Source: Scatophagus argus
Lineage: Eukaryota; Chordata; Actinopteri; Scatophagidae
Length of the DNA stretch: 64,000 nucleotides
Direction: 5' to 3'
Assembly: GCF_020382885.2 (NCBI RefSeq)
Contig: NC_058508.1
Coordinates: 4,704,055-4,768,054 of the forward strand
Made by a program: the position numbers and the translations under genes. The notes beneath the pieces are model-generated. The model saw only the letters and a list, made by a program, of their open reading frames with translations, was not told the DNA's origin and ran no database searches. Below, piece by piece: positions 7,838 to 52,879 of the stretch; the first letter of the stretch is position 1, and each line of letters starts with the position of its first letter.

Positions 7838-10272
7838 TTAGTAAGAGTCAGAGTCCCAATCTTCCAAATCTGGGAAGCAGAGAAGAAAAAAGTGAAATAT
7901 TAGATTTAGGAGCTGAGACATACCACAAACTCAAGCAGGAAGTCTTGACAAGGTGATGGCAAGAGAAGGAAAGGGAATATTTTTTTTCTTTAAAAAAGAG
8001 CCATTTCCCTACACAAATAATAGTGCAACAATCAATAGTGTTTGACAAAAAAAATGCAAAATTCCAGAGTTTTAGTTCATCATTTGGTGAGAATTTAGAA
8101 TTCGCTTCAGGAGTCTGCATTACCTCCACCTAAACTCCTTTTGCCCATGAGTCCAACAAACATCTCCCCTTTATTTCCTGATGAAGAGTGAGACGGAAAA
8201 AACAAGTCCTCATGTGAGTCAAAAGAAACCAAATAATCTTAAAACTGGTGGTAAAGGGAAAAAAAAGAAACACTCAGAGCTTTTTAATGGTGTAATTATA
8301 CTCACTTTTCCTGCCCAGCCTCACAGGCTGAGATGCACCTGAAATTAAGGATGGATGTAAATATTACAGTGATAATAAAGAAAAGCACAGGGAAACCACA
8401 AGATCCAGTACAAGTATTATTCAGGTATTACTGGAGATGTATATCACAAATATGACAACTGCAAAAATATTATAAATTAACTGTAAAATCTCCATTAAGT
8501 ACAATTGTGTATTTGTTTGCTTGTTTACCTGAGCTTCTTCCCATCAGGCCATGGAACTGCTGTGCTTTGGACCGCTTGATAAGGTCTGCCAGCCGGATGG
8601 TTATTCCTCTCTCTAGTGGGTAGCCCTGCGCACACACACACACACACACACACAGTAAAAACAGTCGTGAGTCATTGCAGGTTTGGGACGGGAATGTATG
8701 ATCTTGCTGATCAAGTTATTCCCTGCTGTCTGATGGACTGGGAAGTGCTGGTGCAGTCAGTGCTGCTGAAACTGAACACTTGTTCAATACAAATACCTCA
8801 TTCATATTTATTTTAAGTACAATATATACAAGGGCATACTTTTCACTGAGCACAGGGAAGACGTGCCCCCTCACATATCAAAAAAGCTATTTCAGTCCTA
8901 CTGTACAGTTTTAGTTTCATTTCCTTGGTAAAAAAAAAAAAATCTTTCAGAACTTTCTTTCCATATGGCAAAAGCCAAATGAGAGGTGATTAAGATGTCC
9001 ACGCACTCATCTGCCTCCATGTGCTGGCAGCAACAGCGAGCAGCAGCTAGTGGTGTGAAGGCTTTGCCCCCACACCACACCCTCTGTGAGGTGGAGGCTC
9101 TACCTGCAGCCTGAGAGGAACACTGCTGGCACTGTTAGTGCTAAACCGGTCGACATGATTATTATTTACACATTATTTACACTCAGTAAAAACCAAAAAG
9201 AACTGAACAAAATTCAAAATTCACAAGTCAATAATTACAGATTAGATTTACTGATTGAAGGTTGAAGTCAGTATAGCAGCAGAACTAAATATTATTTATT
9301 AATAACAGAACAATTTACACTGATTTTTTTTTTCAATACACTTCAATTAATTTGGAAAGCATGATAATGCGTTTCACGAAAGCGTGTTGTTTTCTAAACG
9401 GAATTAAATTGACGCAAAATGCACAAAAAGGACTCACGAGCTTTCTCATGTAGAGTTCACACATTTATTTTGAAAGCGACAGACTTGACGCTCCCTTCCC
9501 ACAATCCACTTCTCAACTGTCTCAACTATTTAAAAAAAAATAAATAAATACTCAGTTTGCTCAGTTCTTGTCGTTTTCTTGTTCAAGGGAAATATTATTT
9601 TACAGATTGTTGCTTTCTTATGTTTTTAATGTCTCCCACTGATTGGTCTGTTGCAGCTCTCTGGGGGAGATGATCATCCGTGCAGGCTGATTGGCTGTCG
9701 CTCTCCGCGGTGCTGAAACGTGCGTGAAAAGTGCGTGAAAAGTGCGCAAAGCAGACAATCGGGTGAAAGCAAACGAGGGAGGCTTCTGTACCTTTCTGCA
9801 AAATTCAAGCTGACAGTAACTCTTCTTCTGAATACTGACTTCATCTGAGAGAAATTCCAAATCGTGCAAATAGCAAAGACGAAAGTCCTATTAACGTAGC
9901 GCCAAATGAGAGTTTATTATAATCATACTGTTAACTTTCACTACTTAAAGACTAAGTTTTGCTTATTGTACCACAGAATTTTTCACTACAAGGCAGATTT
10001 CTCGGCAGATCTTTTTCTCAACACAACACATGGGAACATACTCCGCTGTTTATCCCATATAGAACTGAAAAAATAAAATCACATAACATTAACATCACAT
10101 CCATACGTCGATGTTTAGACACGTGTCCGATGGTGTGCTTTTTTACCTGCCAGTTCTCCACCGTCCAGACCTCTCCGTCTTCTTCTTCGCTGGAGAGCGG
10201 AGTCCCCAGCGCGCCAAAAACCTGCACGAACACCACCACCAACAACACAGCTGCGAACTTCAAAGCCTCCAT
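7838..10272 (-). CDS. tac4: Tachykinin 4 precursor (hemokinin/endokinin type)
   Basis: This encodes a secreted 113-residue neuropeptide precursor. Its amidated peptides should act on neurokinin GPCRs. Minus-strand exons are 10147-10272, 8529-8625, 8306-8338, 8124-8177 and 7838-7869, all GT-AG and in phase. Residues 1-24 form a hydrophobic signal peptide (MEALKFAAVLLVVVF...). An acidic spacer follows. The first peptide, after K59-R60, is SKAQQFHGLM, with G71 as amide donor and a single R72. The second, after GRKR, is NKGEMFVGLM followed by GKR. The tail is acidic (DLEDWDSDSY). Both peptides carry the tachykinin signature FXGLM-G. The tac4 assignment, as opposed to tac1 or tac3, rests on the adjacent kat7 and on a substance-P-like peptide followed by an NKA-like one. 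The GTG two codons upstream of the ATG is not used as start. A 5' UTR intron is possible (acceptor-like TTTTGACAG just upstream). Confidence 0.9.
8626..10146 (-). other. tac4: tac4 intron 1
   Basis: This intron separates the signal-peptide exon from the first tachykinin exon. It contains the TG microsatellite at its 3' end. At about 9700-9760 there is a short CpG-bearing patch with repeated GTGCGTGAAAA words. No additional exon is supported. Confidence 0.6.
8631..8654. repeat. CA/TG microsatellite at the tac4 exon 2 acceptor
   Basis: On the coding (minus) strand this is a TG dinucleotide run ending in GCGCAG directly before exon 2. It stands where a polypyrimidine tract would normally be. 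Confidence 0.85.
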
Positions 10273-10458
10273 CGTCACCTCGGGCTGTCAAAATAAAAGT
10301 GCAGCAGATTGTCAAGAAAAACCTCCCCGATGTGGACGCATACAGTAGCCAAATAACTTCAAACTTCTTTTTTTTTTTCTTAGACCAAAAAAAAAAAGAA
10401 AAAAAAGAAAACGTGTGTTCTGTTGTACACTTTGTGCGTCGGTCCTGAGAGAAGGTCT

Positions 10459-11814: not shown

Positions 11815-12203
11815 ATGATAAATGGTGGGCGGCACGGTGGTGCAGTGGTTAGCACTGTCGCCTCATAGCAAGAGGGTTCCAGGTTCGAATCCCGGTCTGG
11901 GCCCTTCTATGTGGAGTTTGCATGTTCTCCCTGTGCCTGCGTGGGTTTTCTCCTGGTACTCCGGCTTCCTCCCACAATACCAAAAACATGCACATTAGGT
12001 TAATTGGCTACTCTAAATTGCCCCTAGGTGTGAGTGTGAGAGTGTGTGGTTGTCTGTCTTTGTGTGTTGGCCCTGCGATTGACTGGCGACCAGTCCAGGG
12101 TGAACCCCGCCTCTCGCCCGTAGTCAGCTGGGATAGGCTCCAGCTCCCCCGCGACCCTGACGGATAAGCGGTATAGAAAATGGATGGATGGATGATAAAT
12201 GGT
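11815..12203 (+). mobile_element. Full-length tRNA-derived SINE, copy 1, with 12-bp target duplication
   Basis: The element body is 11827-12191 (365 bases). It is flanked by identical 12-mers ATGATAAATGGT at 11815-11826 and 12192-12203. The head has RNA polymerase III promoter boxes: A box TGGTGCAGTGG at 11838-11848 and perfect B box GGTTCGAATCC at 11882-11892. The middle has TGGAGTTTGCATGTTCTCCC, and the tail ends in ATGG repeats. I recognise this as a family very common in teleosts but do not assign a database name. Confidence 0.88.
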
Positions 12204-13845: not shown

Positions 13846-14229
13846 ACATTAAACCATCCATCCATCCATCCATTTTCTCTACCGCTTATCTGTCAGGGTC
13901 ACGGGGGAGCTGGAGCCTATCCCAGCTGACTACGGGCGAGAGGCGGGGTACACCCTGGACTGGTCGCCAGTCAATCGCAGGGCCAACACACAAAGACAGA
14001 CAACCACACACTCTCACACACACACCTAGGGGCAATGTAGAGTAGCCAATTAACCCAATGTGCATGTTTTTGGAGGAAGCCGGAGTACCCGGAGAAAACC
14101 CACGCAGGCACAGGGAGAACATGCAAACTCCACATAGAAGGGCCCAGACCGGGATTGGAACCTGGAACCCTCTTGCTATGAGGCGACAGTGCTAACCACT
14201 GCACCACCGTGCCGCCCACATTAAACCAT
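13846..14229 (-). mobile_element. Full-length tRNA-derived SINE, copy 2 (inverted), with 12-bp target duplication
   Basis: The body is 13858-14217 on the minus strand and closely matches copy 1. Identical 12-mers ACATTAAACCAT flank it at 13846-13857 and 14218-14229, which shows an independent insertion. The B box is altered to GGTTCCAATCC, so this copy probably has a weaker pol III promoter. It lacks a few bases relative to copy 1 in the central region. Confidence 0.88.
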
Positions 14230-26438: not shown

Positions 26439-26619
26439 ATCTGTACATCAAAACTCTCACTGTGTCATTGCTGACAACTATATAATTGTTTTTTTTTTTT
26501 ACAATATGACATTTAATTCAATCAAAAAGCAAACAAGTTTTAAATAGAGGCCACAATGTGTTGTTTCTGTTTTTTGCATGCAGTCTGTGCGTGTATTTCT
26601 GTGCGCACAGTATTTGCCT

Positions 26620-29600
26620 TTACATAGTGGTCGTGGAGTGCCGTGCCGTGAGTGTGGGCAGGCGGTGAGAGTGTGTGTGAGAACGTGTGTATATGAGGCT
26701 GTGTACAGCGTGTCTATATCTGGCAGACATAAGATTGTACAGTAAAGGGTTGACAGCAGCACTAAGGTAGAAGAAGACAGAGGACACCAGGTTGAAGTAC
26801 TGAGACAGATAGTATGAAAAATAGTGTGTGTCATCGTGTGTATGTGCGCTGTCAAAGGGTGGGTCATCCTGTGTGTTATCATTGTACAGGTTGGCTGGTG
26901 TCACAGCATATGTGTTTGTCCCCGCGCTGGGAGGTGCGTGATTGGGTGTGTTTTGTGCGTTTATGCAAATGGATGTCAAGTTTTGCGTGCTAGTGAGTGT
27001 GCGTGTATCCGCACAACACGGACTGTCAGTGCGCGTGTTGGTGTTTGTGTCACTATTTAAACCATTTTTTGAAGGCGCAGTGGTGTCAGTGCTGTTCTGC
27101 ATATGGCTGATTGTGTCTCTTTTGTCTGTGGATCTCTCAAGTTGTGCAGCAACATGTGAGGTATCATGTGTTTCAGATTGTTTGGCTGTGCGTCTATCCG
27201 TTTCAGTGCTGGGATCCAGATTATGTGAGGTCTTTTCAGTGCTTATGCGTTGTCCCCTGGTGTGTGATACAATATGAGAATATAAGTGTCTGCCTGTGCT
27301 CATGTCATCAGATTGTGTGGCCATGTCGGCGTGGGTCTCCGTTTCTGTGTCTGCCAATTGTGTGTCTACATCAGTGCGTGTGTTGGCTTTGACTTTATTT
27401 TTTGCAAAGATATCACAGAATATTTCATATCTGTCTGTGATCTTTCCAGGCCTAGTAACAGTATTTGCGTTGATAGTTCTGTCTACGCTGTCATCAAAGA
27501 CAGACTTGATGTCTAAGTGTGAGTTTGTGTCCATGTTTGTTTCCTGACTGTAGAAAATGGTCCGACCCACATGGAAAGGCAGCCAGCACAGGACAAATGC
27601 CAAGACAATCACTCCTGGAGAGGGTGAAGGGATAGAAGGACAAGGAGGATAGAAAAACCACAGGGGAGGACATTAAAATACTTAAAGATTATAAGTTAAT
27701 ATGTGTCTCTTACCTGAATAAACTGTGAAAATACTATCCCTGTAATTGTGTGGTCTCTAAATACCTGTCCTAGAATATGCTGGACTAGTTATTCCTGAAT
27801 CCCTCATTAAGTTTGTGACTCAGAAAGAAGAGGGACTGGAATACACTGACTTAGATTTTTCCCTTCAAATAAAATAATAAAGTAAATAGCGGTGTTAGAT
27901 AGTTAAGACTTCAATAGGAATTTAAAGGGGTTACTGTGAAACATCTTCATCACTGTCCAACCAAAACCATCAAATGTCTAATTAGGAAGTCACTGTAATA
28001 TCTTGTGTGGCCAAACAGATGAAAAAATGGATGGATGCATCACCAATAAAACACTGGGAAACTATTAAACTATAACTATTAAACTCAGTATTAAATTGGG
28101 TCTAATATTTGTGTTATTTTAATACCAGACATTGCCAGCTCCAATAAGTGCAATATGCTTTATTTGTTCTCTAGTGGGTCCATCTGCTTGGTGAGAAAAG
28201 CAACATTTGGATTCAGTGGCCAAACAGAGCTGCTGGATGGAGCCCATTTGTTTTCCTAATTCAGTTACTGAGTAAATGCAACAGTCCTCTACAGCTGAAG
28301 TCAAACAAACTAGACAACAGCATTGTTAGCACTGTGTCAGCAAAAGCCCTGAATGTCTGTAGCCCCGCACAGGTAAATACCCACCAGCAACTACTGTTTG
28401 TCAGTTTGTCCAATTGGCATGTTTACAATAAATATTTAGCCTAAGCTAATCTCTATCTAAGCAATTGTTGCTATTTGTTCTTATTACAGTAAAAGTAGTG
28501 CCTAAGGGTGGATGGTGGAGAGTGTTTGTTTCTCACCCAGCATTTTGACGGTGTGCCGGTGACTCTGGTCTCTACGGCTGCTTTGTGGACGGAGCCATAG
28601 TGTCCGCCCAATCAGGCTGTAGACCAGGCCCAGGATGCAGAGGGGCACCAGGAAGTACAAGTTAGAGAGAATCATCATGGCCGACAACAGACCAGAGGAG
28701 GCAGCGTAGTGTGTGCAGCGACACTCTCTCTTGTCAATCTCTCCTCCCTGACCTCCAACCACACCTTCTGCCCTTCCTCCTCCCTCATCTTCTTTCATTT
28801 TATTTTGACGCTCTGCCACAACTTCCATCTTTCCTTCCTCTTCACCTCCTCCCTCACCTTTTTGTGTCCTCTCATCTCTTTCTCCTATTCCCAATTTTCT
28901 CTCTTCTTTCTCCCCAAAGCTTTTAAACTCCCCAACTCTTTCATTCCATTCCCTTTTCTCTTTTTCTTCCCATTTTAGTCCTTCTAGCTCTCCATCCTTC
29001 AAGGCCATGTGTCTATTTTCTCTTTCCTTTCCACTAATCATGAACCCTCCCTGTTCTCCTTCCCTGCTTGTCCACTCTCCGCCATCTCTCCATCCACTGA
29101 GTCCTAACTCCTCTCCCCCGACATCCTCCACTCCAACCATGACCAGCACCGGTGCTGCACTGATGGCCGCACCCAGCCAGAGGCACCCAATGATAGTCCT
29201 GGTTCTGCGCCGTGTTACCAGGGTCTTGGCGGTGATTGGCCAGCAGACTGCCAGGTACCTCTCCAGGGAGAGGAAGGTGATGTGGAGGATGGTGCAGAAG
29301 GTGCAACACTCTGAGAGGAACATGGTCAGCTTACAGGCAAGGTCTCCGAAGGGCCAGGGACTGGGCCTCCAGAGCTGGAAGACACAGAACATTTATTTTA
29401 CCCTGATGACTGTCACATTCGGGTGTACACCAACATTTTTGAAATAATAGCATGTACAGTGACATTTTACAACAAGACAATGTATTTAGTCAAGAACCAA
29501 TTAAAATCTGTGTCAATCAAAGACGAAGAATAATGATACATGTTTCAAATGAAAATGATTTCCACAAAGGTGAGAATGAACATGAGCATGTGGTCAGACC

Positions 29601-31257
29601 AGAACCAGCAGGGCAAAACAAGACACTTTGTAATATTATTAACAAAAAATAATGAAAATGTAATTTGGAATATCATATTCAGTGTTTGCCCCTCAATTCC
29701 CCAAAATACTAAACACAGGACCTTTCACTGTCAAGCTGAACTGCTCCTAGCAACTCCTACCACAGCTTTTATATCATCTGAAAATGATGCTGACATGTAC
29801 ATTAGTCACTACTGATTGGTTAGATCAAAATCACAGCTGAGGAAGAAAGAATTGCATATTTAGCAACAATTCTTAAAATGTACCATTATTACTAACTATA
29901 CTATTATTATTAATAACTATTGCGCATTTACTCACATGTAAAATTTGATCTTCCCTTGCCACTGTACAGGCAAAATGATGGAAGAATGATCTACGAACAC
30001 TCTGGGTATGACATGTCGTGGATTGTAATAGAAAAAAACTTAATTTAGCAGCAGGGATTCCCCTCGGGGGAGGCACTGAGGGTGTGGTTAAACCACTATT
30101 GGACCACAGTTCTCAAAAGGAAACAAATGCATCATGTCCCCTTCATTCACATTAGCTGTCTGAAATTTCTGCTGTGACTTTACAGCATCAGGTCAGATCG
30201 TACCTTATATCATAACATGCATGTATTAACACAGCTACACTTTGAGTAAGTGTCCATGTACCTTATACAGATCCAGAGGCAGCAGCAGCAGTATGAGCAG
30301 ATCACTGACAGACATGCTGCTCAGGTAGAGGTAGGTAGAACTTCTCATGTGAGGTCGCAGCCAAACCACCAGAATTGTTAGCATATTTCCCAGAAGGCCG
30401 AAGAGCATCAGTGGAATGTAAATGACCGTCACACACACTAGAATAAGAACAATTGTTTTATCAGAACAGCAACTGTATTTATTTCATAACTGTTCACACT
30501 CTCAGGCTTATAATTACCACATCAGATAATCTGTGTAAATTTTGTGGAATAGACATTTTGGGAAATCCACTTATTGGCACTCTTGCTGAGAGTTAGTTAC
30601 TTTCACATCTGATAAAAAAAAATAGTCAGTTAATTTATCTTAGCATAAAGACTGGAAGCAGTTGGAAACAGTTAGCCTGACTGTCAAAAGGTAAAAATAA
30701 AAAATAAATAAGCAATCTAGAGTAGCACCTCTAAAGCTCACATATGTCTCTGAAAATCAAAGGTTATGTGCAAAAATGTGACAAAAATGGTTTTAGTACC
30801 TTTAATCCTAAGCTAATCAGCTGCTGTTAGTAGCTTCATATTTACCAAACAGACAGGGAAGTGGTAGCTAGTGGTAGCTATCTGTCATCTTTCTTTTGCT
30901 GTCACCTACAAATAAGCTGTTGAACTACACCTTTAATCTCAAAGCAAGCAGGAAAGCTAATTAATGACTGTTTTGAATTGTACAAACAGCAAAGATAAAA
31001 TCAGATATCAGAAAACCAAATATCTTGCCTTTTGCAGCTTCAAATTTTCCTTTACAAAATATTACACTGAAGTACTTTTTGCTGTTTTTTTTTTTTGTTG
31101 TTGTTTTTTTTTTATACCCACCTAACTCAATCAGTCCAAACACTGATTCATCCCCCTGGCACTCTTGGTTTGTGCAGCTCTCTGGGAAGCCGGATGCAAG
31201 GCTACAGTTTTCATCTTCACAGCCGCTGCCCAGGTCCCCCAACTCCAAAAGATCCAT
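26620..31257 (-). CDS. Ghrelin/motilin-receptor family GPCR with giant extracellular loops 2 and 3
   Basis: This is a class A peptide receptor for the plasma membrane. Minus-strand exons are 31122-31257, 30262-30437, 28537-29374 and 26620-27614, all GT-AG and in phase, giving 714 residues. The family norm is about 360-410. TM1 has GN at 62-63, TM2 SVSDLL (D91), TM3 C118 and ERY at 142-144, TM4 W170, TM6 CWLPFHVGR from 393, and TM7 NPLLY at 672-676. The intron before TM6, after HTVKML, sits where GHSR is spliced. ECL2 gains about 130 Glu/Lys/Gly/Arg-rich residues (190-321) before the conserved Cys322. ECL3 gains about 240 Thr/Ser/Asp/Asn-rich residues (407-650). Phrases match both GHSR and MLNR. 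A long ECL2 is known for the fish GHS-R1a-like receptor, which is my best guess, so no symbol is given. Ligand unknown. Confidence 0.85.
27615..28536 (-). other. GPCR intron 3
   Basis: This intron lies between the TM5/loop-3 exon and the TM6-TM7 exon. The donor is GTGAGA and the acceptor CTCTCCAG. I see no other gene in it. Confidence 0.75.
29375..30261 (-). other. GPCR intron 2
   Basis: This 887-base intron between TM2 and TM3 has donor GTACATG and acceptor TGTCTTCCAG. No repeat or coding content is recognised. Confidence 0.75.
30438..31121 (-). other. GPCR intron 1 with a dispersed repeat copy
   Basis: The intron separates the N-terminal exon from TM1. Within it, about 30545-30830, is a copy of the repeat also seen near 14675 (TTAGCATAAAGACTGGAAGC, GGAAACAGTTAGCCTGACTG, AGCACCTCTAAAGCTCACAT). 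Confidence 0.65.
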
Positions 31258-32752: not shown

Positions 32753-35576
32753 ATGGCACTGAGAGCTGCACTGAGGAACAAGCACAGCTTATCAGGTATG
32801 TCTGCATGCATGGACACTTTCTGCTTTTATGAGTGCTTTTATTTTTAAAAGAGCTTCAGGTCTTCTTTGGTTAAGACAAGGTCTTTGAGGTGAACACACA
32901 CCTCATTCAGGTATTTTAGTGTAAAGAATGTCATTCCTTATGATGAATAGTATGTTATCTGAAGCAATATGTACAGTAGAGCTGTTGATTGTTTAGTTAA
33001 TTGACAGGAAATTTATCTGCAATATTTTAACAATTAATATAGTCACTTAAAATTGAACATCTTTGGGCTTCAGCTTTGCTAAACTGCAATGGATTTTTTG
33101 GTTTTTACTGTTAACTTCCATTTTCTATTACTACTTTTATAGAAGCAGGTGATTAGAAACAAGTAATGGAGAGAATAATCTGCAGATGAAATTATGATGA
33201 AACTAATTGTGTGTTTCAGCCCTGATGTACAGTACCGTATAATTCAAAATATGGTATTTTTAGTCTATTGATCGACTGAACAGTATGGCAGTATGGTTTG
33301 GTTTTGTTCAGAACGTACATGGGATTTATCATGTGGTCACGTATTAGATGTATGATAAGCATCTACCAAGGACAAGACAACAGTTAAGCCACATCATGGT
33401 GTTGTACTAATCATTTAATAGCAGTGACAACATAGTAGTATTGTGTGTGTGTGTGTGTGTGTGCAGGTCTTCTTTCCCAGCAGTCCTCCTGCAGCCGTCA
33501 TGGCGGAGTGTGTGTGTCTCCTGTCCTTGTCACTCAGCGGAGGAACAACTCCACCTCACCTAAAATAAAAGTAGATTTCGACCAAAAAAGGGGTAAACAT
33601 TTTTCCATCATCACCATCATCCCTCTTTTTCTCTCTGTTCACTGTTCACTGATCTGTCACTCTTTAATTTTAAAGCACCCTTTCACACACGAAACCCAGA
33701 GGATTGGTGGGCTCTTTCATTCAGACACCGGAGTGGATATCAGAAGTCACATAAGTTTCATGTATTGTAAAATTCATGACATTAGTGTTAGGAGTTTTGC
33801 CCTTACAGCAGGTGGCTGAAGAGTAACAAGTTGGGTCATACAGACGGTTGGAGAAGAATGGCAGCCATGATAAATATTTGTTTTGTATTTTGAGAATGCT
33901 TGAGGGCATTTACCAACCAATATGTATATTTAAAAAGTCTCAAAACCTGCTTTACAGACATTTATCTCTCTGTTTTCAGATATACGATCACTTCCAAAAA
34001 AGTTGGGATACAGTGTAAAACAGACATAAAACACAATGTAATAATTTGCTAATCCTTTTTTGACATATACTCAGCTGAAAACAGTACAAAGACAATATAT
34101 CTGATGTTTTTACTTCATCAGCTTCATTGATTTTTATAAACACCTGCTTATTCTGAATTTGATACCAGCAGCATGTTTCAAACATGTTGAGACAGGAGCA
34201 ACAGAAGACGGGCGACGTTGCTGAATGCTCAGAAAACACATTCTGTTGTGTTTCCATTAGCCTTCCTGAAGAGTTATTGTGAGTGGTGTTGCTGTGGGAC
34301 TTGTCTGATTTTTAAGACTTTTGAACTTTTATGTGTTGGTTACGTACATTGTTGTTGAAAATATATAGCACGCTCGTCTTGTGTGCATGATTTTTCCTAG
34401 TTTGTGTTAAAGCTGGCAACAGTTAGCTAAATCAGAGGAGGAGAGAGCTCAAGAAACACTGCATCAACAAAGGCCATTTCAAGTGTCTCAGATCCACTTC
34501 ATTCACATTTAGCCACAGACAGGTGTTTCCAGTGGCCAGACCACAGACATGCTTGCACTAGACCTTGATCTTGGCTTTGCAGAGTCTGCCCCACTCCACT
34601 CCAAAGTGGTGATGATACCCTGTTATCACCCAAAAACGCCAGAAGAAACTTAAATATTTTACTTACAACAACAACAGTCACACCAGAACTCTCAAGCTGG
34701 CAACTATCAGTTAATTCACACAAACACATAGATGAATCACATTAACGAGCCAGGAGTAAGACACAAGTTTTATCGACTCAAGATGCTCCCTCACCCTCAC
34801 AAGTCATTCAGTGACTGAACTTTCCTGGGGTCAGCTGAATACTGAAAAAAGATCAGTGTGTCTTCTGTGTGATAACGTGTGCTAAAGTAACTGATGATGG
34901 TTTTTTCCTGTCTCTAATGAAAGAGCAAATTACAACTAATTTGACTGTAATTCAGTGTAATTTCAGCTGTCATCATTACTTAACCTACCCAGAGACAGCC
35001 AGACCCTGAGTTTGACTTTAATAGGCAAATGTGCATTTAGTATCAGATTTGCCATGTACCATATAAATTAGATATTGTTGTTGGCCTTGAAGGCCTTGTC
35101 CACATTCCTTAACTGACTACAAAACACCATGTTGTCATTACCTAATAATTCCTACCCTTTCATATAACTTTTTTACATTTTTGGATGAATCCGTAGATAG
35201 TTTATGTTGAGGCTAAGGATCATGGTCTCTGTCTCTCTGCAGGTGTGGCTTTGATGCGCATGCAGAGTCCACCCGTCAACAGCCTCAGTTTAGATTTCCT
35301 CACAGAGTTCTGCACCGCCACAGAGAAGCTGGAGATGGATAAGAGTTGCCGAGGCCTCATCATCACCTCGGTACAGTATAACCTCATCGTTTAAAGCAGC
35401 AGTTTAAGATGGATCTTTTGGCTTTGTGTGTGTGCGTGTTTCAGAGGGGGTAGATATATATAAAATGCTTCACTTTTTGATGTTTTAGAATGTTGTTTAA
35501 TCAGTTGTGCAAGCACTGTCACTGTTGGACTGTGTGACAACTTTTAAATGTTGTAACAGAAAACGACAATTTACTC

Positions 35577-38233: not shown

Positions 38234-39178
38234 ATGGCACTGAGGGCTGCATTGAGGAGCAAGTGTGGCCTGTCAAGTATGTTTGCGTCTATTAAGCACT
38301 TTGTTGCGATTTGATTGTAGGTGTGCGCGTCAGTTTTTTACAATTATTCTAACGTAGTTTGAGTTAAAAACTGTCATCTCGTCTCCGCCGGCTGTTAGCT
38401 GCGTTAGCTCTGAGCTCTGCAGAAACTGGATCAAAGGTCACTGCTGGGCTTTTTACCTTTAGCCACCAACTGTCACACATAAACCCTCCAAGTTTATATC
38501 AGCTTATACCTGCCATTAGCTATCACTGCCAGTCAGCTCATGGCCAGTTTGTTCTGAAAAATGAAGGCGTAAAAGAATAATTCAAACCCAGTTAATGTCA
38601 GTTATAGATTGATGGTGATTTATACACTGATTTGTTTTGTTCAAATTTATGCAGTAGCCAGGACGTAAAAATGCTTTTAAAATGAAGCTGCACTTTAACA
38701 GGAATACATGTGAGACACGAAGAGACAGAAATAACAATAAACTGACATAAACTTACCTGAGTTAAACTGACTAGATTTCTCTACTCTCCATAAATCTTCA
38801 TTCAGTGTGTTACTAAATCCTGTTTATACCAGCAGCAGGATTTCTCTCCTGCTCCACTTTCCTTATTATTTCAGCCACTACTATTAGCCATCTGTTCAGA
38901 ACTGTATTAGGTTGTTGTTAACATATTAATTGTTACTGCAGTCATTTGAAATAACAATTACGCTTGTTTTTGCCAGTAAGTGAAATGAAATTGTGAACTG
39001 AAACTTCTGTTCTCATTTATCATGTATGGGATTAATCATGTAGTCACATAAGAGCTGCTCTTAAAGTTTACTTTTCCAAAGTTTACTCTTTCAAGCACTC
39101 TTACGTGTAATTCTTAAAGTTTGATAAATACGTGCCAAGGACGAGACACATTATTTAAATCATGATGTTGCTTTCTTC

Positions 39179-39227
<49 letters not shown>

Positions 39228-40284
39228 GTCTTCTTGCCCAGCAGTCCTCCTGCAGCCGTCATGGCAGAGTGTGTGTGTCTCCTGTCCTCGTCACTCAGCG
39301 GAGGAACAACTCCACCTCACCTAAGATAAAAGTAGATTTCGACCAGAACACAGGTAAACATTTTTCCATCATCCCTCTTTTTCTCTTACTGTTATTGATC
39401 TGCGTCTTTCTTTTTTCTCACATGAAACCCGTAAAATCACGACATGGCTGTTCCAAACAGCATTTTCTCCTCCTAGCAGGAGGCTAATGTGTAGCGAGTT
39501 GAATCATACGAGCACAGAATTCTGGCAGTCATAAATGTTTGTCTTTGATTTGTTGATTAATTTTTTTGGTGAATTCTTTTAGTTCATGGTCTCTGTCTCT
39601 CTGCAGGTGTGGCTTTGATGCGCATGCAGAGTCCACCCGTCAACAGCCTCAGTTTAGATTTCCTCACAGAGTTCTGCATCGCCACAGAGAAGCTGGAGAT
39701 GGATAAGAGTTGCCGAGGCCTCATCATCACCTCGGTACAGTATAACCTCATTGTTTAAAGCTGCAGTTTAAGATGGGTCTTTTGGCTTTGTGTGCGTGTT
39801 ACAGGGGAGGTAGTGTATTATAAAATGCTTCAAATTGCATCGTAGGACATACTTTTTAATGTTTTAGAATGTTGTTTAATCAGTCAGGATAGCACTTTTA
39901 ATGTTGGATTGTATGACACAATTTTTAAATGTTGCGGAAGAAACTGATAGGTTACCCGATGTGTGTATGGATTTAATGTAGAGCCAACCCAAGGTGTTTT
40001 CAGCCGGGCTGGACATCATGGAGATGTACAGGAAGAGTCCAGAGCACTGCGCAGAGTTCTGGAAAGCTGTTCAGGAGATGTGGCTGAAGCTCTATGGCTC
40101 CAACATGATCACTATTGCTGCAATCAATGTACGTATAAATCAGAAAAATGAAAAGATCAGACATCTTCCAGATACACTACATGATATCAGGAACATGACA
40201 CCTTTCACTACCTCTCCAATACCTGTGTGTGTCTGTGTGTGTAGAATATGTTAGAGACATGAAGAAGTTTAAACATCTTTTGTT

Positions 40285-50085: not shown

Positions 50086-52879
50086 ATGAGTGACGTGGTG
50101 CCTCCCACAGCCCTCAGTGAAGTCCAGCTCCGCTTCCTCTGCCACGATGACATAGAGAAGGTCAAGCTGCTCTGCGGTGATTGGTTCCCAATTGAGTAAG
50201 AGTCGTATTCAGTCAGTGTACCAGTGATGCTGTTTGTTAGGGTTGAAGTATCTTGCGTTCAAATCAGAATTTGGATAGTATAATTGTACCCCTTTAAAGC
50301 TGTCGATGAACATGTGTGCATAATTTATTGGGAAACAAAAAAAATTATGTAGCTCTAAAGTATGCATTACTGAGCTCATTAAGCCCCTCTCTTCCTGTAG
50401 TGTAGTTCAGTATCAGGGAGACGTGCACTTCAACTCCGGTATATGTCGATATGGGGGAACAGATTTGTTGCATGAATGGTAACGTTTCTGTCCTCTGGCT
50501 GCAGGTACCCAGACTCATGGTATCAGGACATCACCTCCAACAAGAAGTTTTTCTCCCTCGCTGCCACCTTCAGAGGAGGCATCGTGGGAATGATTGTGGC
50601 TGAAATCAAAGGCCGGACCAAAGTACACAAAGAGGTACAGCGATCAGCTTGGTTACGCAGTCACTTACACAAAACACTGGGATTTTACAAAGTGTATCCT
50701 TCGATGGTGTCACTGAGTGTGTTAATCGCTCAGCTGTAATTTGGAAAATGTCTTAAGTGGAACACATAGACATAGTACAGTCTGTTTTTAGTCTCCTAAT
50801 TAGATGATCCACATGCCCTTGACTGAGTTACACTCTGTCCTCTGTCATGAAACCAGAGTACCATATAATGGATACTAAGGTGAGGAGAAAGAAGCTGATG
50901 ATGGGAGGGCTGCTGCTAACTAACTGGTCTTTTCATTTTGAGAAACATAAACAAGGAGGAACACTAAAGAAAGAATGTTTTTCTTCTTCTCGTATAAATG
51001 AATGTGATAAGCCTTGTGCTGCTGTGCTTTGAACGTGGGTATTTGTAAATGTATACTGTCTGTAACAAGCTGTATGAAGTGGCACTAGAACATTACGGGA
51101 AAGGGTCTAAGTCCTATCCTAAAACAATAGGAAACTTGTCAGATGTGCAGTAACAAAATACAGGAGATTCAGTTTATTTAATGGGCTGAAATCTCTTCTC
51201 ACTTTAGGCGGTAGTTTTTTGAAAGCTGTTCACTCAGGAGTGCTTGCGGATAAAACTTAATTTTCCTTTTTAAGGAGTATTTGCATTTTGGAAAGTGCCT
51301 TCCTGGTGGGTAATTTGCCTAGGCAAATATGAACACAGAGTAACATCAAATTACCAAACTGAAAGATCTTTTTAAGTGATATGTTTGAATTCGATAAAGA
51401 ACCAAATTTAGTTTTTACAATCTATTTTGTGTTCCTAGAGTTCCTATTGTGTGATTTTAATCCATTATTATCTCTCTGTCTTTGTGTGTAAATGTGTGTG
51501 TGTGTGTGTTAGGATGGAGACATCCTGGCCTCCAGTTTCCCTGTGGACACACAGGTAGCCTACATCCTCAGCCTGGGAGTGGTCAAAGAATTCAGGAAAC
51601 ATGGCATAGGTACTGATCCCCTTTTCCCAGAAACTCTCTCACACAGTGACTTGCTTTGACACTTTGGAGGACATTGCATTGACTCATATCCATTACCTGG
51701 ACACTTTTCATAATCTTAACTATCACCACTAGTAGCTAAAGCACCACCCTTTACCCTAATCCAGAGGTAAAGGCAGCTAAGCCTGAACTTAAGCTACTGG
51801 AGGCAACACAGACAGGTTAATAACTGATAAACTCACCATAGAGTCCGACTTCTGCTCCTTGTCTTTGATGTATTTCTCACTGTTGATGTCCGTCAACAAC
51901 TTACATGCAAGAATCCATAACCATTTTCCATAAATCCCCATACATGTAAATGACCTAAAGCACAAAAAGGCCACCTGATGGAACAACATACAGTTTATAC
52001 AGTGGCTCCTACATGCACACTAATTGAATAATAATAATTAGTTTAATAACCAACTAGTATTTCTGATATTTCTGGCGAGGGAAGCAGCATTTAAACGGCT
52101 AGTCGCACACATCCCTACTTGTAACAATGACCTATAAATGACAAACATTCATAATTCATTTGAATTGCGATGTCCTCAATAATATTCTTGAAGGTATTTG
52201 TGCTAAAAATACACACAACATTGTCCTTTTGTGCAGCATTAATAGATCTTGTTATTGCTTAATCACTGCATTTACTGTAACCCACCTTTAAACCATTCAG
52301 GCTCCTTACTGCTGGACAGTTTGAAGGAGCACATCTCAACGACAGCGCAGGACCACTGTAAGGCAATCTACCTACACGTCCTCACCACCAACAACACTGC
52401 CATCCACTTCTATGAGAACAGGGACTTCAGGCAGCACCACTACCTGCCCTACTACTATTCCATACGAGGCGTCCTCAAAGATGGATTCACATATGTGCTC
52501 TACATCAATGGGGGTCATCCACCCTGGACAATATTATATCCTTTTGTGGAAGCAGGAAAAGAAATTTAATATTGTTTATTGGACAGTTTGTTTTCATATC
52601 TCACTCTGTATTGTAGAATCTTCAGCATCTTAATGAGAGGAGTTGTTATGCTGAGATACTAAATAGACAAACCAAACATAAATGTGCCATTTTTCTAGAT
52701 TTTCCTTAACTTCCCGTCCCACTGACTATATCCAGCACATCGGTTCAACCCTTGCGAGCCTGAGCCCCTGCTCCATCCCTCAGAGGTTGTACCGACAGGC
52801 CCAATCCCTGCTGCGCTCTCTGCTGCCCTGGTCCAACATCGCCTCCAAGACCGGCATACAGTACAGCAGAACAATGTGA
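50086..52879 (+). CDS. naa60: N-alpha-acetyltransferase 60 (NatF), Golgi
   Basis: This GNAT-fold enzyme acetylates N-termini of membrane proteins facing the cytosol at the Golgi. Coding exons are 50086-50195, 50505-50634, 51513-51609, 52301-52535 and 52723-52879: 729 bases, 242 residues, the same length as human NAA60 as I recall it. F34 (GDWFPIEYPD), Y97 (VAYILSLG) and H138 (IYLHVLTTNN) occupy the positions I recall as substrate-gating and catalytic in the human protein. The acetyl-CoA loop RKHGIGS is at 108-114. After DGFTYVLYINGGHPPW comes the C-terminal amphipathic membrane anchor (DYIQHIGSTLASL... to YSRTM). Introns 1-3 are GT-AG; the last is AT-AC of U12 type. The ATG is chosen because it restores the full conserved N-terminus. 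The intron 2 acceptor is preceded by TG repeats (about 51494-51509). Confidence 0.95.
52536..52722 (+). other. naa60: U12-type AT-AC intron of naa60
   Basis: The 187-base intron starts ATATCCTTTT and ends CCCAC. A branch motif TTTTCCTTAAC sits at 52700-52710, about 13 bases before the 3' end. These match the minor-spliceosome consensus for donor, branch site and spacing. Removing it joins codon 191 in frame and restores the conserved DYIQH C-terminus. No GT-AG solution in this interval does so. Confidence 0.9.

Follow-up and report, generated by a model that had tools for sequence, protein, structure and literature searches.

A probable GHS-Ra-LR2a orthologue in Scatophagus argus with two greatly enlarged extracellular loops

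Introduction

The described system closest to the receptor gene analysed here, which lies in a 64,000-nucleotide stretch of the Scatophagus argus genome (contig NC_058508.1, positions 4,704,055 to 4,768,054; hereafter the window), is GHS-Ra-LR2a, a GHSR-family receptor of percomorph fishes, flanked by ECI1 and TAC4 (Tine et al. 2016, PMC4797157). As far as the main text of that paper goes, LR2a receptors are described as having a large third intracellular loop (ICL3) of 90–237 residues, or 275 in Fundulus, and a second extracellular loop (ECL2) said to be like that of GHS-R1a/2a in most species, and the terms 'ECL3' and 'third extracellular loop' do not occur there. In its Table 2, all four rows with ECI1 upstream are oversized proteins (medaka, 465 amino acids (aa); sea bass, 543 aa; platyfish, 577 aa; Amazon molly, 576 aa), the platyfish and Amazon molly rows being filed as LR2b, and the 12 LR2a rows comprise five of 451–543 aa and seven of 303–344 aa, the short ones with other or unstated flanks. 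A 2019 survey, in the sections drawn on here, names a gar/fish/coelacanth clade GHSR2 and sets it apart from the human GHSR orthologues (PMC6504862); GHSR2 is probably the same as GHS-Ra-LR2a, and the window gene would then belong to it as well.

Here we report that the window gene encodes a predicted receptor of 714 residues in which both ECL2 and ECL3 are greatly enlarged. The reading that we favour, at a probability of roughly 0.6, is that it is the GHS-Ra-LR2a orthologue, an orphan receptor that joins the genome's GHS-R1a-like and motilin-like receptors as a third ghrelin/motilin family member, and which would signal in the ordinary way and carry disordered loops that are tolerated. Both the lineage and the presence of a giant loop in its receptors were known from earlier publication; in the window gene, the giant loop is placed outside the cell and not inside it, and ECL2 is giant as well.

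Results

The source assembly comprises 48 contigs (570.7 Mb), and the window lies on contig 16 of the set. The receptor gene occupies 31257-26620 on the minus strand, where four exons joined by GT-AG introns give 715 codons with the stop, and hence 714 aa. An earlier note on this DNA had proposed four in-phase exons encoding a complete ghrelin/motilin-type receptor of this length, which the junctions and the homology searches described below bear out. Alternative acceptors and junctions in the same exon-joining search gave versions of 708, 709 and 713 aa, all of the same protein. Exon 1 (31122..31257) encodes an acidic N-terminal segment of 45 codons plus one base with four Cys and one N-glycosylation sequon, ends in phase 1 and stands without homology support of its own; its donor (TAG/GTGGGT) scored 8.2 bits with splice matrices that, here and below, are approximate. 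Around the start ATG, position -3 is A and position +4 is G. Exon 2 (30262..30437) encodes the first two transmembrane helices (TM1 and TM2) with ICL1 between them and ends in phase 0 at LDLYK/LWRP, exon 3 (28537..29374; donor 6.9 bits) runs from ECL1 through TM5 and ICL3 and holds the ECL2 insert, and exon 4 (26620..27614) encodes TM6, the giant ECL3, TM7 and a short C-terminal tail up to the stop at 26622-26620. AATAAA/ATTAAA words follow on the 3' side at 26517, 26438 and beyond, which is weak evidence in AT-rich DNA. Exons 4 and 3 contain the two longest entries in the lists of open frames (350 and 296 aa); the next-longest (212 aa) is antisense to exon 3, and the maximum in the lists for 1-25500 and 32000-64000 is 152 aa.

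The translation contains the class A motifs ERY, CWLP and NPLLY and matched Pfam 7tm_1 at 4.7e-46, and a phmmer search against solved structures returned human GHSR (1.4e-77), the motilin receptor (1.1e-72) and neurotensin receptor 1 (NTSR1; 2e-44). By sequence, the gene is a class A (rhodopsin) G protein-coupled receptor and a member of the ghrelin/motilin receptor family, nearer to GHSR/MLNR than to NTSR/NMUR. Identity over the core was 57.6% with fish GHS-R1a-LR, 54.2% with human GHSR, 51.3% with human MLNR and 50.4% with the fish MLNR-like receptor, and an 87-residue probe searched against its own genome found, next after itself, two genes, one of GHS-R1a-LR type (contig 15, 60%) and one MLNR-like (contig 5, 53%). 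In a nine-row tree, this fish MLNR-like gene paired with human MLNR (95/96). The exon 3/4 boundary, after VKML, coincides with the single intron position of GHSR (human residue 265). Introns 1 (30438-31121) and 2 (29375-30261) are extra relative to the GHS-R1a-LR type gene and the MLNR-like gene, in both of which TM1-TM5 lie in one exon, and mammalian GHSR, a gene of two exons, is without counterparts of either. They lie in phase 1 after the N-terminal segment and in phase 0 after LDLYK, and their absence from these other genes suggests intron gain in the lineage. Beyond this genome, the viral_contigs collection was scanned once for relatives and gave 18 pattern matches, none of them related.

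The neighbours of the gene correspond to the published flanks of GHS-Ra-LR2a. Upstream lies an exon at 39982..40251 (plus strand) that matched Pfam ECH_1 (4.1e-11) and that we take, by eye, to be ECI1 within the enoyl-CoA isomerase family. Downstream, at 8146..8556 (minus strand), are two motifs of tachykinin type, each followed by an amidation site: FHGLMGR (FHGLM at 8556-8542) and FVGLMGK (FVGLM at 8160-8146). We read them as TAC4; they were the only two F-x-G-[LVM]-M matches in the six frames of the window, and the TAC4 name is based on them.

The agonist pocket is largely preserved, with the equivalents of D99, C116, E124, C198, M213, S217, W276, F279, H280, R283 and F312 (GHSR numbering) all retained. 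Of these positions, D99, C116, E124, M213, S217 and H280 are given as key for activation, and F279 is given a role in basal activity, in PMC3713435; all six of the activation residues are kept in the window receptor. The other positions are counted here as pocket residues as well. The helix bundle and pocket thus look functional, and the receptor probably signals in the peptide-driven manner of GHSR, its ligand being uncertain.

The two inserts account for the unusual size. The ECL2 insert (28736..29113, minus strand) covers residues 192-317 (126 residues) and is rich in Glu, Gly, Lys and Arg, with DNA that is 81% purine, and the ECL3 insert (26815..27546, minus strand) covers residues 407-650 (244 residues) and is rich in Thr, Asp, Ser and Asn, with CA-rich DNA in which CA and AC steps make up 31%, against 15% in the receptor core. 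These sizes agree with the enlargements of about 130 and 240 residues given in the earlier note, as does its description of ECL2 as charged (57 of the 126 residues are K, R, D or E). ECL3 of class A receptors is normally short. Between the CWxP and NPxxY motifs, the window receptor has 275 residues, compared with 40 in the GHS-R1a-LR type receptor, 37 in the MLNR-like receptor, 40 in human GHSR and 37 in human MLNR, and with 32–44 (median 35) in the 55 receptors with both motifs readable out of 60 sampled from this genome. The sample consists of the 65 best of 148 7tm_1 matches minus five partial or stop-bearing ones; it draws on the best-scoring candidates only and favours one-piece matches, and the window gene itself is absent from it, so other giant-loop or many-intron receptors could also have been left out. 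The stretch between TM4 (VGVE) and the disulfide Cys of ECL2 is 134 residues long in the window receptor, against 27 in the GHS-R1a-LR type, 13 in the MLNR-like receptor and 12 in human GHSR. ICL3 measures about 20 residues, and the giant loop, which follows TM6, is ECL3. A partial search of the literature brought up no description of a ghrelin/motilin receptor family member with a giant ECL3, nor of a double extracellular enlargement to 714 residues.

Both inserts have the character of coding sequence. Stops in the forward frames, coding frame first, numbered 0/7/9 in the ECL2 insert and 0/9/26 in the ECL3 insert, with 2–10 in each antisense frame. The probability of an open frame under order-1 and order-2 Markov models was 0.0014 and 0.0032 for the ECL2 insert, and 0 of 5000 simulations were open under each model for the ECL3 insert; the observed codon-position periodicity was reached by 2 and 3 of 2000 simulations for ECL2 and by 0 of 2000 for ECL3. 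So far as sequence alone tells, both are therefore coding. The highest 19-residue Kyte-Doolittle means were -0.74 and 0.31, with no hydrophobic helix. A search for tandem arrays inside the inserts found none, and an origin from transposons or repeats was rejected since each insert matched the genome once, at itself, in a DNA search that ignores simple repeats.

A rival reading, in line with the earlier note, is that ECL2 and ECL3 form a functional extracellular module, such as a hood, a gate or a device for ligand capture, that alters access or specificity, and that may be held together by disulfides between the N-terminus and ECL3. The enlargement affects two extracellular loops and leaves ICL3 short, four Cys lie in the N-terminal 45 residues and four in the ECL3 insert, and a second Cys stands two residues past the ECL2 disulfide Cys; as a speculation, these could cross-link the module. 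The oversized proteins in all four ECI1-upstream rows of the published table point the same way. By analogy, fish GHS-R1a-LR, in which ECL2 is longer, responds to ghrelin weakly or not at all, and in trout and tilapia, with ECL2 modestly longer, it shows no Ca2+ response, which makes an effect of the loops on ligand access plausible. Against a module stand the biased, simple composition of the inserts and the wide variation of published lengths between species, as well as the scarcity of sequons and Pro in the ECL3 insert. The heavily O-glycosylated ECL3 hood of the earlier note fits the Ser+Thr content of this insert (27%) and fits poorly with a Pro content of 4% and the presence of two N-sequons among its 244 residues, so that a glycosylated hood or gate is possible and the heavy glycosylation weakly supported. 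Overall we consider a functional module unlikely, and we are more doubtful still of its boldest form, in which a clade-wide giant ECL3, filed as intracellular, would combine with ECL2 and a Cys-rich N-terminus into a new ligand-capture or filter module over a ghrelin-type pocket, possibly for a non-ghrelin ligand.

One or both inserts might instead be introns, or be alternatively spliced out, so that the usual mRNA would encode a receptor of ordinary size. Within exon 3, just one candidate for an internal intron is in phase (7.8 bits); its removal would also take out parts of TM4 and TM5, and no acceptor above 2 bits was found within the ECL2 insert in the splice-matrix scan. Exon 4 contains seven candidates, the best of which scored 11.4 bits (cutting into TM7) and 11.2 bits (27571-26799, leaving no ECL3). 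Such pairs are below the background, as the median best pair in 300 random window stretches per exon size was 14.6 bits for the size of exon 3 and 15.5 bits for that of exon 4 (995 bases). The ECL2 insert also contains two donor-like sites, at 28858 (AAG/GTGAGG, 11.1 bits) and 28765 (8.1 bits), which exceed the used donor of exon 3. Spliced to exon 4, either would keep the frame and skip TM5, and a truncated isoform is possible; the strong cryptic donor at 28858 is a point in favour of insert splicing that is weakened by this loss of TM5. Given also the open frame and codon periodicity of the inserts, their removal seems quite improbable, and the splicing-out that the earlier note named as a refuting outcome finds little support on the sequence side. 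Decay into a pseudogene, with loops growing for want of constraint, is hardly credible for this gene, since despite the atypical insert composition and codon use, and a mean dN/dS of 0.25–0.29 in published fish GHSR-like clusters versus 0.08 for GHS-R1a/2a, it retains 714 sense codons in four exons with GT-AG at each junction, along with class A motifs and pocket residues, and its exons 4 and 3 contain the longest and second-longest open frames listed.

Elsewhere in the window, a possible signal-peptide exon near the tachykinin motifs (10018-10287) matched no Pfam family. An exon at 52246-52569 (plus strand) had acetyltransferase Pfam matches below the cut-off, and we take it, by eye, to be NAA60. 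Two pairs of similar open frames, 11853-12167 (plus) with 13886-14191 (minus) and 33439-33819 with 39128-39487 (plus), are probably dispersed repeat elements.

Discussion

Several points weigh against reading the gene as a GHS-Ra-LR2a orthologue that signals ordinarily through tolerated loops. The names ECI1 and TAC4 rest on motifs, a family profile and inspection by eye, and further genes may lie between them and the receptor. The nine-row tree, in which the NTSR and NMUR rows drew a long-branch warning, shows one open fork for the GHSR rows, the MLNR and NTSR pairs and the window gene; it thus gives the gene no fixed place and does not even split GHSR/MLNR from NTSR. Seven of the 12 published LR2a rows are of normal length, as far as Table 2 goes (PMC4797157). 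In the pocket, F309 is replaced by Ser, Q120 by Met and F119 by Thr, so ligand recognition may differ. In none of the frames does synonymous codon use in the inserts resemble that of eight other receptor genes of the genome plus the core, a result compatible with young sequence whose composition is biased, and codon bias lends no support to coding. Finally, the probable disorder of the outer loops is read from their composition.

Membership in GHS-Ra-LR2a is based on the locus together with the family, and the window gene would accordingly be an orthologue and not a new lineage. The giant ICL3 of the published description is absent, and the assignment lapses if the published topology is right. 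We consider that the published label is probably wrong, and that the loop called ICL3 corresponds to ECL3, perhaps because TM6 was included in the count, as the window gene suggests. The Fundulus row, at 501 aa with an ICL3 of 275, would leave 226 residues for all else, against 344 non-insert residues in the window receptor. If the published species truly have a long ICL3, the window gene is an independent oddity. The earlier note knew of no family member with a giant ECL3; that statement has to be tempered, since the ECI1/TAC4-flanked GHS-Ra-LR2a, in the published text, has a giant loop labelled ICL3. Within Table 2, accession XP_008329002.1 appears twice, once as LR2a and once as LR2b, and one of the LR2b rows, flanked by FNDC3B, may be a motilin receptor, whose neighbour is FNDC3A according to the part of PMC5840709 used here; the LR2a and LR2b labels therefore look mixed.

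On the orthologue reading, the window receptor would signal as an ordinary Gq-type peptide receptor via its conserved bundle, and ECL2 and ECL3 would be disordered, solvent-exposed tethers grown out of degenerate GA-rich and CA-rich sequence. The lack of a hydrophobic stretch and the biased insert DNA suggest such growth of simple sequence into flexible tethers, and length appears labile, from 465, 543, 576 and 577 aa in the ECI1-flanked published rows to 714 aa here. Loops of this length could be tolerated because both of their helix ends stay anchored, and the C116-C198 pair keeps both Cys. Their main effect, if any, would be to slow or filter ligand entry and not to form the binding site. 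In the literature searched, which was covered in part, we met no report of a ligand for the GHS-Ra-LR2a clade.

If the giant loop of GHS-Ra-LR2a is extracellular, the one structural description of the clade that we found assigns it to the wrong membrane face, and ideas about its function would have to turn from G-protein coupling to ligand access. A natural ECL3 insert of about 240 residues would also offer a ready test of what a receptor mouth tolerates.

In sum, the window receptor shares with GHS-Ra-LR2a, as described in PMC4797157, the ECI1/TAC4 flanks, the GHSR family, a protein far longer than 366 aa and one giant loop, and differs in its length (714 aa versus a Table 2 maximum of 577) and in having a giant ECL3 and ECL2 where a giant ICL3 is described. 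GHSR2 (PMC6504862, in the sections noted above, which give no loop lengths) is likewise a fish clade of the GHSR family, to which the window gene probably belongs. The GHS-R1a-LR gene on contig 15, named by similarity and its long ECL2, resembles the window receptor in core identity (57.6%), a lengthened ECL2 and the TM5/TM6 intron, whereas its TM4-to-Cys and CWxP-NPxxY spans are 27 versus 134 and 40 versus 275 residues and its TM1-TM5 lie in one exon. The motilin receptor, represented by the contig 5 gene and human MLNR, is like the window receptor in about 50% core identity and the pocket Glu, Arg and His, with the same TM5/TM6 intron in the fish gene, and unlike in its normal ECL3 (CWxP-NPxxY 37) and, in the fish gene, the single exon for TM1-TM5.

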